NCBI GenBank assembly: GCA_017439675.1
Contig: JAFSIQ010000048.1
Span: 1 to 50,137, forward strand
Source of the DNA: Lachnospiraceae bacterium
Lineage (GTDB): Bacteria > Bacillota > Clostridia > Lachnospirales > Lachnospiraceae
Length of the DNA stretch: 50,137 nucleotides
Direction: 5' to 3'
Made by a program: the position numbers and the translations under genes. The notes beneath the pieces are model-generated. The model did no database searches. It saw nothing but the letters and a program-made list of their open reading frames with translations, and was not told where the DNA came from. How positions within the stretch are numbered: the stretch's first letter is position 1; every line of letters starts with the position of its first letter. This document shows, piece after piece, positions 1-25,428 of this stretch.

Positions 1-565
1 CTTTCCATTTATCTGGTATGGTATACTCCTGTCCTGCGGCCGAGCTATCATCCTCTTCTTCTGAATTATCCTTGTCACCATCTTCTGTAGAATCTCCACC
101 TGCATTCACGCTGTCATCCACAAAAGAAATCTCTGATGGAACTGCTGGCTTTCCATCCTCTCCATATGCCATAAACCCAAAGCTTACTGATTGTCCTGCC
201 GCAATCGTGCTGTTATAGGTCTTAGCTGCGATAATATAATGTCCATTCTCGGATGAAATAATATCTGCATTCCAAATATTATCAATACACCCATCATAAA
301 CCATTTCTATCTTCCACAGACTTTTATCACTGTCTGTATCATTTTTAAGAACGATATCCGCATTGACATAATTCCCCCATGAACTGGTTTCCCTGTAAGT
401 AATGCTGCAACCCTCAGATGCATAGGTCTGCTCCGCCTTCGTAGGTGCCACTCCGGTAGCATAGGCACTACTTGGAATCAGTCCAAGCAGTAACGCTACA
501 ACCAGTACAAAGGACAATAGTTGCTGTCCCCACTGTTTCCTTTTTCTTTTTTTTATCCTTTTCAT
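1..565 (-). CDS. Secreted CBM2-like surface protein, N-terminal part
   Basis: The reading frame is open from an ATG at 565 to the window edge, so only about 188 residues are visible and the C-terminus is missing. It starts with a basic stretch (MKRIKKRKRK) and a hydrophobic signal peptide (about residues 15-37, ending SSAYA). A domain follows with the aromatic and Asn/Gly pattern of cellulose-binding module family 2 (about residues 45-135: WGNYVNADI, WKIEMVYDG, WNADI). An acidic Ser/Asp/Glu linker comes next. Family knowledge suggests an exported carbohydrate-binding or adhesion protein. It is the first gene after agrD on the same strand, so it could be a quorum-sensing target; that is inference from position only. 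A catalytic or anchoring domain may lie beyond the edge. Confidence 0.7.
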   Translation of the reverse strand, partial: MKRIKKRKRKQWGQQLLSFVLVVALLLGLIPSSAYATGVAPTKAEQTYASEGCSITYRETSSWGNYVNADIVLKNDTDSDKSLWKIEMVYDGCIDNIWNADIISSENGHYIIAAKTYNSTIAAGQSVSFGFMAYGEDGKPAVPSEISFVDDSVNAGGDSTEDGDKDNSEEEDDSSAAGQEYTIPDKWK

Positions 566-598
566 AATTTCCTCTCTTTTTACTTATAATCAATATTT

Positions 599-671
599 AA
601 AAAGCTATTATTTATATAGCCTTCACCCACATATACTGCCGATCAACACACTATATAAAAAATAGCTTTTT
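599..671. repeat. 21-bp inverted repeat between agrD and the surface-protein gene
   Basis: The arms at 599-619 and 651-671 are complementary at 20 of 21 positions and enclose a 31-nt loop. The stem is AT-rich and its outer edge ends in five T on either strand. A second, perfect 7-bp hairpin (682-688 with 692-698, loop TCT) sits just after the agrD stop codon. Together they could end the agrD transcript or act as a leader structure for the surface-protein gene. Confidence 0.5.
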
Positions 672-718
672 AAATATCTTCAGAATACTCTGTATTCTTA
701 AACACTTCAAGAAATCTA

Positions 719-865
719 CTAGTCACGATACTTCTTTAAAGCATCTAACTGTGGATCCATCTTCTCCTGATGAAATCTACAAAAACATGTAGAATTCACG
801 GCTACTCCTGCCATTACAAGAGCTAAGCTGTATAACATTTTTGTAACTTTTGGACTCAACTTCAT
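719..865 (-). CDS. agrD: AgrD-type cyclic peptide pheromone precursor
   Basis: This 48-residue ORF starts at an ATG at 865, preceded by a strong GGAGGTG site; the ATG five bases upstream (870) meets a stop after two codons. The N-terminus is an amphipathic, hydrophobic leader (MKLSPKVTKMLYSLALVMAG). The core NSTCFCRF-HQEKMDP follows, then a charged tail ending LDALKKYRD. This is the three-part plan of clostridial AgrD proteins. The core aligns with C. perfringens-type CLWFT-HQPEEP, so the expected thiolactone ring is five residues, Cys27 to Phe31 (CFCRF); a second Cys at 29 leaves the ring Cys uncertain. The gene follows the GHKL kinase gene and has its own operator and promoter at 889-952. 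No agrB, the usual processing protease, is in the window. Confidence 0.85.
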   Translation of the reverse strand: MKLSPKVTKMLYSLALVMAGVAVNSTCFCRFHQEKMDPQLDALKKYRD

Positions 866-888
866 ACCATTTTCACCTCCCGATTGGT

Positions 889-952
889 AAGATAGCACAT
901 TTTTTATGCAAAAAATCGAATGTGGTAAAAATATGTCGATACTTGGAAAAAT
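889..952 (-). promoter_or_regulatory. agrD promoter with LytTR-type operator (operator 2)
   Basis: On the minus strand two 9-mers, ATTTTTCCA (944-952) and TTTTTACCA (923-931), are separated by a 12-bp spacer containing ATCGAC. That is the 9-12-9 spacing used by LytTR regulators of the AgrA/ComE class. An extended -10 (TGC TATCTT, hexamer 889-894) lies 28 bp downstream, without a good -35, as expected of an activator-dependent promoter. The operator shares pattern and geometry with the one at 3108-3137. Confidence 0.65.
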
Positions 953-2280: not shown

Positions 2281-2991
2281 CTAAAGAATATCTCCCAAAA
2301 GTTTTTCTTTTACATTCTGTTTCATTGATTGGCTAATTGGAATTTCCACCTTGTTCGCCATTATAACACTATCACTTTTATGCTGAATTACATAGTGTAA
2401 GTTCACAACAAAGGATTTATGTACAACACAAAATACTTGTTCATTTAACTGTAATACAACATCGGAAAGCTTCCCATAAAATTCTTCCGTTCCATCTTGC
2501 GTAACCATCTGTACTTTCTTACCTTGACTTTGAAAATATAGAATACAATTAAAACTAATCCTACATTTTTTCTTTCTTATATTGTATGTAAAGTACCTAT
2601 TAGATGCCGGAAATAATCTGTCATACTCATCCATAATAAATGAAACCTTGTCATAAGTGATAGGTTTTACCAAGAAATTCATTGGACGTATATTGAACAA
2701 CTGTAGTGCATACTCGTCGTTTGCAGATATAAACACAATCTGCATTATTTCATTTTTCAAATCTGAACGCAACCTATTTCCGACATCAATACCTGTTATA
2801 TCATCCAATTCAATATCTAAAAATAAAATATCAAACAAACCATCTTCATCAATACTAGAAAACAATTTGTCTGAATTTAAAAACGTCTGTGTTTCAACAG
2901 TAACACCCTTCTTCTTGGCATACTCCAACACATGTCTTTCCAATTGTATTGTAAATTGTTCATCGTCATCACATATGCCAATTCTCAACAT
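2281..2991 (-). CDS. LytTR-family response regulator, AgrA-like
   Basis: The N-terminal receiver domain (about residues 1-120) has the acidic cluster CDDDE, the phospho-acceptor Asp59 in LFLDIEL and a Lys in FLVKPI. The C-terminal LytTR DNA-binding domain (about residues 130-236) carries FYGKLSDVVLQL and VHKSFVVNLHYV. I start it at the ATG at 2991 (MLRIGICDDD) because GGGGAGG lies about eight bases upstream; ATG codons at 3006 and 3021 have no such site. Its likely targets are the paired 9-bp repeats at 3108-3137, before its own gene, and at 923-952, before agrD. It would therefore activate its own operon and the peptide gene, as in other Agr systems. Confidence 0.88.
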   Translation of the reverse strand: MLRIGICDDDEQFTIQLERHVLEYAKKKGVTVETQTFLNSDKLFSSIDEDGLFDILFLDIELDDITGIDVGNRLRSDLKNEIMQIVFISANDEYALQLFNIRPMNFLVKPITYDKVSFIMDEYDRLFPASNRYFTYNIRKKKCRISFNCILYFQSQGKKVQMVTQDGTEEFYGKLSDVVLQLNEQVFCVVHKSFVVNLHYVIQHKSDSVIMANKVEIPISQSMKQNVKEKLLGDIL

Positions 2992-3072
2992 ACCCATCCT
3001 CCCCATAAAAACGCATTCCATATAATTTGTTAATATTTTGCATTAGGTTGTGTTGTTTTCTCTTTTGTTTAG

Positions 3073-22576: not shown

Positions 22577-23110
22577 TTGAACCAAGAAGAACTAATTGCA
22601 CATGTTCTACTTGCAAAAAATGGTGATTCTACTTCATTTTGCAAGCTATATGAACTGTATTACAAAGATATGTACCGCTTCGCATATTACACTTTAGAAA
22701 ACCAGCAGGATGCAGAGGACGTTATCAGTGAAACAGTATTAGACGCCTTCAAAGGAATTAAAAATCTGAAAAAGCCGGAGAAATTCAAGGCTTGGATATT
22801 CCAGATTCTCTCCACGAAATGCAAACGACAGATAGCGGTTTATGTATCCAACAGAGAACATTTAAAAGATGAGCCGTCGGAAAGCGAGTTGACGCAGGAC
22901 GAAAACCCTTACGCCGAGCATCTGGATGTGAGAAAAGCATTCTCCATCTTAAATGAAACCGAAAAAATGATACTTTCCATGATGGTGTTCGCCGGTTACA
23001 ACAGCCGGGAAACTGCCAAAATACTTGACAGTAATGAAGGAACTGTACGCTCTACTAAAAGCCGCGCGCTTACAAAAATGTCCAATTATTTAAAGGAGGA
23101 TTACGCATGA
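22577..23110 (+). CDS. ECF-type RNA polymerase sigma factor
   Basis: The 177-residue protein has sigma region 2 (FCKLYELYYKDMYRFAYYTLENQQDAEDVISETVLDAFKGI) and region 4 (LNETEKMILSMMVFAGYNSRETAKILDSNEGTVRSTKSRALTKM broken over residues 120-165). It starts with TTG at 22577 behind GAGGTGA; no ATG is available. The stop overlaps the start of the membrane-anchored partner by 4 nt (ATGA type), the usual sigma/anti-sigma coupling. One of three such pairs in this window. Confidence 0.9.
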   Translation: MNQEELIAHVLLAKNGDSTSFCKLYELYYKDMYRFAYYTLENQQDAEDVISETVLDAFKGIKNLKKPEKFKAWIFQILSTKCKRQIAVYVSNREHLKDEPSESELTQDENPYAEHLDVRKAFSILNETEKMILSMMVFAGYNSRETAKILDSNEGTVRSTKSRALTKMSNYLKEDYA

Positions 23111-25428
23111 ACGAACAGGAACTCATGAATAAGATAGACGAAACAACGAAGAACATCCCCATTCCTGACAGCATTTCTCCTGAAAACATGAAAAAGATGT
23201 TAGACGAGGAAATGCATGATTGGAATGCATTCGATAGAACCACAGATAAAAACTCAGACAACAGCACATCAACCCAGACAAAGACAGCGAACAATGCAGT
23301 CACAAAACTATCTACAAGCAACCGCAACCGTATCATGCGCCGCTTAACAGTAGCCGCATGTCTTGTGCTCTGTTTTGTAGTTGGTGGCACAGCAATCCAC
23401 TTAGGATCCCGTTCCCAACTCCAATCAGACACCACAGAAAGTGCTGCTTATGAAGAAGCTGCAGAGGAATCTATGGATATAGCAGAATCCGCAGAAGCTG
23501 AGGAGGAAAGCAAAAGTGCGGATACTGCTTCTACAACGGCTGAGGAATTGGTTGTGGCAAGTAGTCTACAATCTCCAAGTAGCTACGAGGATTATTATGA
23601 AACATTGACTACAGCTTATCAAGCCTACTATGACAACATCGCAACTGTTACCACAGATGAGTTAACAGATGGTTTGACGATGGAAGATTCCTTCCAAAGC
23701 TCCACCGAGGCCGGTTTGGCAACAAACGAAGCTGTCGCCGAATCTGCAACAGTAACAGGTAGTGCTGCCGAAAAGGAAATGGCTGCCGATTTGGATTCCA
23801 GTCTTCGGGGCGCAGGCAGTGGCGAGGAGTCCAATGCGGATTTTTCTACCACGAATACACAAGAAAAAGAGGTGGATGAGGGCGATGTTATTAAGACAGA
23901 CGGCAAGTACATCTACAAAATAATTTCTAAGTTTAACGGCGATATCGGATATACAATCCATCAGCTTACCATTACCGAGACAGACAATGGTAACCTAAAA
24001 GTTCTTGGTACCATTGACTTAAGCGAGGGAACGAAACCGGAGGAAGACGTTTACCTTGACTTCAAGGAATTTTACCTCTATGACAATTACCTAGTGGCAT
24101 TGTTTGCCTTTACAGATTACTCAGGCAAACATGAAAACACAACCCGGATTACTCTTTATGATATTTCCGACAAAGAAAACCCAAAACGGGTACGCACCTT
24201 AACCCAGTCCGGCAATTATGAAAGCTCACGCATCAGCGATGGCTATCTATACACTATCAGCAACTTTTACGAGGCAAACTTAGACACCCCAACTCCATAC
24301 AGCAACTACATTCCAAGCATCAATGGAACTACTATGGAGTGCGAGGACATTTATTATCCGGATAACGTTTTGATTGAGACCACCTATGTTGTCACTAGCT
24401 TAAATCTTGACAACCCAGAGGATTTCACTGACACCGCTGCCATTCCGACCAATGGCGGACAAGTCTATGTCAGTGATAGCTCCATTTACTTTTACACTAC
24501 TTTATACGACCATGTAACTAAAACCGAAATTGTAAAAGTGAATTACGATAAAGGAATTCTTACACCGGGAGAAAACGCCATCATCACCGGTTACCTTTAC
24601 GATTCCTTCGCCCTCAGCGAATATGATGGGCATCTTCGAATCGTGGCAACCATTCCTGCCAATAATATATCTTTGTTGCGCACCGACCTGTTCAAGGTTG
24701 GCAGTGCAAATACAGAGGACACCACGGAGAATGTTGTTGTAAAGGAGGATGTAAATGTACTGTACATCTTAGACAAAGATATGAAGCTAACTGGCAAAAT
24801 ATCCGGCATCGCACCGGGCGAACAAATCTATTCTGCTCGTTTCATGGGTGACATTGGCTACTTTGTAACCTTTAAAACGGTAGACCCGTTGTTCTCCGTT
24901 GACTTGTCTGACCCGACCAACCCTAAGATAATCGGTCAGTTGAAAATTCCTGGCTTTTCAAACTACTTACATGCCTACGAAGATGGATTACTTTTGGGGT
25001 TAGGGGAGGAATACGACCCGAACACCATGGACTACCTTGGATTGAAGCTTTCCATGTTTGATATCAGCGACCCTGCAAATGTAACCGAACAGGACAAATA
25101 TATCATCGAGAACTCCACCTATACAGATGCACAGTACAACCACAAAGCTTTGATGATTGACCCTAAAAAGAACCTATTCGGTTTCTTGTACGGAAGTTCT
25201 GATGGTGTCAATTACAAATACACCCATTACTATGCAACCTACACCTATGATGAGGAGAAAGGTTTTATCGAGACTGCTCGATACGAAATAACTGACGGTT
25301 CTGAAAACGAAATAGATGCAGTGCGTGGTGTATACATTGGAAATTATTTCTACCTAGTGACAAACAAGAGTGTTACTAGCTACGAAATCGGATCTACAAC
25401 GCCGATTGCACAGGTTCATTTCCGATAA
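23107..25428 (+). CDS. Membrane-anchored beta-propeller protein, likely anti-sigma partner
   Basis: The 773-residue protein starts with a cytoplasmic segment typical of anti-sigma proteins (IDETTKNIPIPDSISPENMKKML). One transmembrane helix follows (about residues 78-98, LTVAACLVLCFVVGGTAIHL), then an acidic Ala/Glu/Ser-rich linker (about 105-245). A large extracytoplasmic beta-propeller domain fills about 250-773 (VDEGDVIKTDGKYIYKI, VRTLTQSGNYESSRISDGYLY, YSARFMGDIGYFVTFKTVDPLFSVDLSDP). The coupling to the sigma gene argues that the N-terminus holds the sigma factor and the propeller senses something outside. The ligand is unknown. Confidence 0.85.
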   Translation: MNEQELMNKIDETTKNIPIPDSISPENMKKMLDEEMHDWNAFDRTTDKNSDNSTSTQTKTANNAVTKLSTSNRNRIMRRLTVAACLVLCFVVGGTAIHLGSRSQLQSDTTESAAYEEAAEESMDIAESAEAEEESKSADTASTTAEELVVASSLQSPSSYEDYYETLTTAYQAYYDNIATVTTDELTDGLTMEDSFQSSTEAGLATNEAVAESATVTGSAAEKEMAADLDSSLRGAGSGEESNADFSTTNTQEKEVDEGDVIKTDGKYIYKIISKFNGDIGYTIHQLTITETDNGNLKVLGTIDLSEGTKPEEDVYLDFKEFYLYDNYLVALFAFTDYSGKHENTTRITLYDISDKENPKRVRTLTQSGNYESSRISDGYLYTISNFYEANLDTPTPYSNYIPSINGTTMECEDIYYPDNVLIETTYVVTSLNLDNPEDFTDTAAIPTNGGQVYVSDSSIYFYTTLYDHVTKTEIVKVNYDKGILTPGENAIITGYLYDSFALSEYDGHLRIVATIPANNISLLRTDLFKVGSANTEDTTENVVVKEDVNVLYILDKDMKLTGKISGIAPGEQIYSARFMGDIGYFVTFKTVDPLFSVDLSDPTNPKIIGQLKIPGFSNYLHAYEDGLLLGLGEEYDPNTMDYLGLKLSMFDISDPANVTEQDKYIIENSTYTDAQYNHKALMIDPKKNLFGFLYGSSDGVNYKYTHYYATYTYDEEKGFIETARYEITDGSENEIDAVRGVYIGNYFYLVTNKSVTSYEIGSTTPIAQVHFR

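Follow-up and report, generated by a model that had tools for sequence, protein, structure and literature searches.

How does an agr pheromone gene come to stand with its kinase and regulator but with no agrB, the maturase gene, and is its peptide still matured? The question is raised by a locus near one end of a 50,137-nucleotide stretch of DNA from a Lachnospiraceae bacterium, here called the window. The window is the entire contig C37, its first base inside a gene, and the host genome was assembled to 1.99 Mb in 50 contigs at 70% completeness and has an agrB elsewhere; none of these points is in the preliminary description of this DNA. The features of the locus, from the contig end inward, are:

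2..565, minus strand: gene for a CBM2 protein whose N-terminus is signal-like, truncated at the contig end and now standing after agrD (PF00553, 1.8e-14)
593..677, no strand: long A/T-rich hairpin between agrD and the CBM2 gene (folding energy -42.9 kcal/mol, z -5.1)
719..865, minus strand: agrD, 48-aa AgrD-type pheromone precursor, MKLSP...NSTCFCRFHQEKMDPQLDALKKYRD (TIGR04223, 21.3 bits, cut-off 19)
874..881, minus strand: ribosome-binding site GGGAGGTG, found in the sequence by eye, 8 nt upstream of the agrD ATG
923..950, minus strand: candidate LytTR operator TTTTCCAAGTATCGACATATTTTTACCA, a direct repeat TTTNMCA with a 21-bp period, located 58 bp ahead of the agrD start codon
992..2266, minus strand: AgrC-like GHKL sensor kinase, 424 aa, with a multi-pass membrane N-terminus (PF14501, 5.3e-22)
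2281..3021, minus strand: AgrA-like LytTR response regulator, 246 aa (PF04397, 6.9e-16; PF00072, 1.7e-10)

The order on the minus strand is LytTR regulator, GHKL kinase, agrD, and the identification of the window as a real, rearranged agr locus is firm. The preliminary description had called the 48-residue frame an AgrD, which was borne out by a score above the curated TIGR04223 cut-off, and the GHKL kinase and LytTR regulator that it placed upstream were confirmed by the PF14501, PF04397 and PF00072 matches. Its statement that no gene of the window fits agrB also held, since the gene that follows agrD encodes the CBM2 protein and tblastn with four AgrB queries, one of them a contig-end fragment, found no agrB or agrB remnant in the window (best E 0.13). 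The regulator and kinase stand beside agrD as in an agrACDB locus, with no adjacent agrB. The agrD frame is intact, with an ATG start and with Cys at the aligned ring position (Cys or Ser in the family), and it has relatives in loci L007 and L008. Eight hydrophobic segments were found in residues 1-197 of the kinase. Two AgrD places in the host genome were over the TIGR04223 cut-off, both in agr contexts; none of 14 named control genomes had one, 10 of the 14 giving sub-cut-off matches at E ≤ 10 and none at E ≤ 0.05. Elsewhere in the window, at 22577-25428, a gene for an ECF sigma factor is followed by one for a beta-propeller protein (PF09826).

A search of 26 genomes of the genus, the host's own included, found a kinase match at E ≤ 1e-30 in 12 of them. 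Named genomes were scanned with an alignment of five kinases; of 390 related stretches the best 80 were taken, with flanks of up to 6 kb around the kinase (shorter where a contig ends), and agrD and agrB were marked in them by profiles built from sequences of this analysis. Among these best 80 of 390 loci, both genes were marked in 31, agrD only in three (L089, L141 and L146, the last of which begins inside the kinase, its upstream side unseen) and neither in 46, a count that includes L112, whose weak AgrD match (E 0.1, opposite strand) was set aside. In a kinase tree of 78 of the 81 rows, those longer than 300 residues, the window paired with L078 at 100/100 support inside a nine-row group that was also supported at 100/100. 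Within this clade agrD is followed by agrB in four loci (L079, L080, L081, whose agrB is truncated at the end of its contig, and L083), agrD is alone in the window, and neither gene is present in L078, L082, L084 and L085. Because clade loci with agrD then agrB exist, the window locus most likely derives from an agrACDB ancestor that agrB has left; the structural part of our reading taken by itself, an agrACD locus derived from agrACDB, is almost certain. The earlier suggestion that the system may be rearranged was thereby upheld. The four loci with agrB, from MAGs named Lachnospiraceae or Eubacteriales, have the order regulator, kinase, agrD, agrB and share the kinase clade and AgrD type of the window; they keep agrB, whereas the window is without it.

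Between L078 and the window, dN was 0.22 for the kinase and 0.21 for the regulator, and pS was 0.71 and 0.72, with synonymous sites near saturation; dating the loss of agrB by dN/dS was therefore dropped. Among the other loci, an agrD-like ORF at L077:4143-4412 (G016:C99) is divergent from a regulator-kinase-agrB set and lies about 2.2 kb from agrB.

The candidate operator sits between the kinase and agrD. LytTR regulators tend to bind direct repeats with such a period. The same repeat layout precedes agrD in G010 and G005, and in G008 (L078) it precedes a C39-peptidase transporter gene; by locus, the candidate operator stands ahead of agrD in the window, L079, L081 and L083, with a weak pattern match only in L080. 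The pattern was written from the window, G008, G010 and G005, and five loci outside its making were then scored against 500 shuffles. L083 fits with one mismatch (0 of 500 shuffles as good) and L084 weakly with three (2 of 500); the pattern does not stand out in L080, L082 or L085, where 39, 296 and 95 of the 500 shuffles, respectively, were as good. The assembled host genome has one perfect site and one more with two mismatches, and since the reversed control pattern also matches once, no regulon is claimed.

The ring of the peptide had been left open in the preliminary description on account of the two Cys in CFCRF. The two Cys are there, and the openness is narrowed: the first Cys of the pair is kept in L079, L080, L081 and L083 (sister cores CCYRF, CTKRF, CAYHF and CWAVF) and the second is not found at its place, which makes CFCRF, closed through the first Cys, probably the ring to be predicted.

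The enzyme that would close it is less plainly placed. The search for agrB and for other agrD genes that had been proposed yielded, in the assembled genome, one agrB and a second agrD, together on contig C27. This agrB (C27:76787-77269, 84.9 bits) is the only one over the cut-off in the assembly, two sub-threshold matches (14.9 and 13.2 bits) having been set aside; its own agrD comes directly after it, and a GHKL kinase and a LytTR regulator lie on the opposite strand. In the stretch GGSHRETMLGC this AgrB retains a His and a Cys that presumably match the AgrB active site. In a tree the AgrBs of L079, L080 and L083 formed a 100/100 group with the C27 AgrB outside, on a very long branch for which the tree program warned that the placing is unsure. 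Identity of the C27 AgrB to the sister AgrBs is 23-30% (local scores 67-102), against 31-39% (294-336) among the sisters themselves, and it seems from these comparisons to belong to an AgrB lineage other than that accompanying this AgrD type. The Pro-x-x-Pro motif, which passages of two papers suggest or state to be a contact with AgrB (PMC3901668, PMC8748961), is present in the C27 AgrD. It is absent from the tail of the window AgrD (QEKMDPQL), where the profile does not require it, and from the four sister AgrDs with adjacent AgrBs. The position of the C27 AgrB outside the sister group, its low identity and the Pro-x-x-Pro difference suggest that the AgrB lost from the locus was probably of a particular kind, for which the C27 AgrB would be an uncertain substitute. 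Maturation of the window AgrD in trans by an agrB elsewhere is possible.

The explanation that we prefer is that an agrACDB-type quorum-sensing locus has lost agrB from its operon and kept regulator, kinase and agrD. An AgrB acting in trans, either that of C27 or one encoded in a part of the genome that the assembly lacks, would cleave AgrD and close it through its first Cys into a CFCRF-type thiolactone; the kinase would sense this peptide, and the phosphorylated regulator would bind the repeat at 923-950 and drive agrD, which would amount to autoinduction. For the explanation as a whole, an agrACDB-type locus minus agrB with a working pheromone matured in trans, the chances appear to us about even. 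It is supported by the TIGR04223, PF14501 and PF04397 matches, by agrD then agrB in four of the nine clade loci, by the candidate operator in the window, L079, L081 and L083 and before the L078 transporter, and by the intact agrD with its ribosome-binding site. The identity of the agrD peptide to its counterparts, set against that of the flanking proteins, also counts in its favor: in G010 agrD is 52%, the kinase 42.5% and the regulator 48% identical to those of the window, and in G005 the values are 40%, 42% and 50%. Further support comes from the presence of an agrB elsewhere in the genome, from the C. autoethanogenum precedent (below) and from recurrence in Pseudobutyrivibrio xylanivorans MZ8, where 13 kb separate the single AgrD from the single AgrB over cut-off and a different regulator stands next to the AgrB. 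Against it, the C27 AgrB has its own agrD and falls outside the sister AgrB group, and its AgrD has the Pro-x-x-Pro that the window AgrD is without, a point tempered by the sisters' lack of the motif. Also against it, both agrD and agrB are missing from four of the nine clade loci, so that agrD may be in the course of being lost.

In another possible course agrB was lost, the peptide is unmade, the kinase and regulator answer the peptides of neighbours or some other ligand, and agrD is a leftover already gone from some sister loci. L078, paired with the window, keeps an intact kinase and regulator, with the gene after the kinase, a C39-peptidase ABC transporter inside which the contig ends, in the place of agrDB; L082, L084 and L085 also have neither gene, and L084 has an ABC transporter and an FtsX-type permease in that place. 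Against this course stand the intact agrD frame with its Cys, the ribosome-binding site and the candidate operator, and we regard the locus as rather unlikely to be a relic or a receiver only.

The replacements are of some interest in themselves. In G008 (L032:1-903, minus strand, of G008:C160) the C39-peptidase ABC transporter after the closest relative of the window kinase has the same operator-like repeat ahead of it, as though the system had switched to another type of peptide. At L084:4218-8391 the ABC ATPase and FtsX-type permease genes follow the clade kinase, replacing agrDB.

The loss could also be one of assembly, with a matching agrB among the 30% of the genome that is missing, or with the contig end misjoined and agrB really after agrD. 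The completeness of 70% and the 50 contigs leave room for this, as does the contig end itself: the contig starts at window base 1, which lies inside the CBM2 gene, 565 bases beyond its start, and less than 720 bases from agrD. The interval between agrD and the CBM2 gene, however, contains the hairpin and an ordinary start of the downstream gene. Moreover, PF04647 gives the sister-type AgrB of L007 99.8 bits (cut-off 23), so an AgrB of that type would probably have been detected had it been assembled. We therefore think an incomplete picture improbable.

The hairpin occupies the interval that holds agrB in the sister loci. No agrB remnant lay between agrD and the CBM2 gene among the 20 best tblastn matches listed. 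The hairpin is an 85-base near-palindrome (593-677) that by eye is TA-flanked. Its sole full-length match in the host genome is its own inverse, the others being of 34 bases or less, and in the other 25 genus genomes only pieces of 22-28 bases were found, in two of them. With no second full-length copy and only short pieces in two relatives, its reading as a mobile repeat that displaced agrB is unsupported.

That some other enzyme matures the 48-aa product, or that this product works in the membrane without being processed, is highly improbable: C. thermocellum makes a mature AgrD-type lactone for which neither an agr operon nor a candidate AgrB was identified by the authors (PMC5322536), but no candidate enzyme is seen beside agrD in the window, and the product retains its AgrB-type core and charged tail.

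The frequency of agrD without adjacent agrB was estimated in a census of 150 genomes of the family, one per genus and drawn evenly, the window's own included. There were 86 AgrD places over cut-off (seven only with neighbours in frame), after 10 AgrD rows and 26 AgrB rows below cut-off were dropped. An over-cut-off AgrB lay within 3 kb of 63 (within 400 bp of 55), and 23 had none: 13 in G103, three at contig ends (G180:C52, G180:C62 and G112:C154), the window, and six others, in four of which an AgrB was 3.9 to 5.1 kb off. Since 23 of the 86 have no nearby AgrB, lost agrD-agrB linkage is a minority state and is not unique to the window. Conversely, 41 AgrB places had no over-cut-off AgrD within 3 kb, which is an over-count because TIGR04223 misses some AgrDs (that of L065 is undetected and that of L080 scores 14.5).

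The 13 G103 loci (L053-L063 and L064) are dispersed, and none is beside agrB. A kinase is in the same-strand cluster in 11 of the 13, with a regulator detected in 10 of those 11. At L061:3468-3590 an AgrD-like frame is over the cut-off with no in-frame ATG, GTG or TTG, and no kinase or regulator matched in its surroundings. Of the two AgrBs of this genome, one has its own AgrD (missed by TIGR04223), kinase and regulator; the other is lone, at L064:3538-4131, directly downstream of a MYG1-family gene (PF03690). [Clostridium] polysaccharolyticum DSM 1801 has five AgrDs, one below cut-off, and two AgrBs, one beside an AgrD. At L160:12-2079 of that genome a MYG1-family gene and a GtrA-family gene precede a lone AgrB, 42% identical to the lone AgrB of G103, and four agrB-less agrD loci, one below cut-off, lie elsewhere.

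For 31 of the 41 AgrB places, about 2 kb on each side was fetched (less at contig ends), and the AgrB profile built here re-found AgrB in 29 of the 31. Six more were both G103 places, G027:C37, G027:C42, G146:C205 and G167:C18, only the G103 pair being scored for MYG1; G033:C39, G032:C47:46652, G168:C7 and G074:C55 were left out. A kinase or regulator matched at 21 of the 31 loci and an AgrD profile, weakly or better, at 10. None of the 31 had a MYG1 neighbour, so the MYG1 link is one of two genomes only. For the genus of the window, a hub AgrB linked to MYG1 was rejected, as none of 26 genomes matched MYG1 in a search run without a positive control; any hub AgrB there would accordingly differ. 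It may tentatively be proposed, as a doubtful generalization at this stage, that some genomes of the family run many dispersed agrD-kinase-regulator modules off one free-standing AgrB, the window being an early or reduced case. A literature search, to which most subscription journals were outside, found no shared free-standing AgrB for many AgrDs beyond the C. autoethanogenum case. Were a shared maturase confirmed, one enzyme would make many signals and a single AgrB would serve many private channels, altering thinking on pheromone specificity and cheating.

The locus indicates that, inside a single clade of gut-type bacteria, an agr pheromone gene can part from the gene for its maturase. The sister loci, some with agrB, some without it and some without agrD, are material for testing what the kinase then listens to.

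Among described systems, C. difficile agr2, whose content is given in PMC3901668 and whose agrACDB order is given in the abstract of PMC3754575, shares with the window the LytTR regulator, GHKL kinase and agrD in that order, and differs in having agrB after agrD. In C. autoethanogenum, Agr system 2 is described as agrD2C2 without agrB (PMC8748961), and the authors assumed AgrB1 to act in trans. With the C. thermocellum lactone, this places agrD without adjacent agrB already in print, and this kind of arrangement is therefore known. System 2 and the window each have an agrD with a kinase, no agrB beside it and one agrB elsewhere, and the window differs in its AgrD without Pro-x-x-Pro and in having a LytTR regulator of its own.
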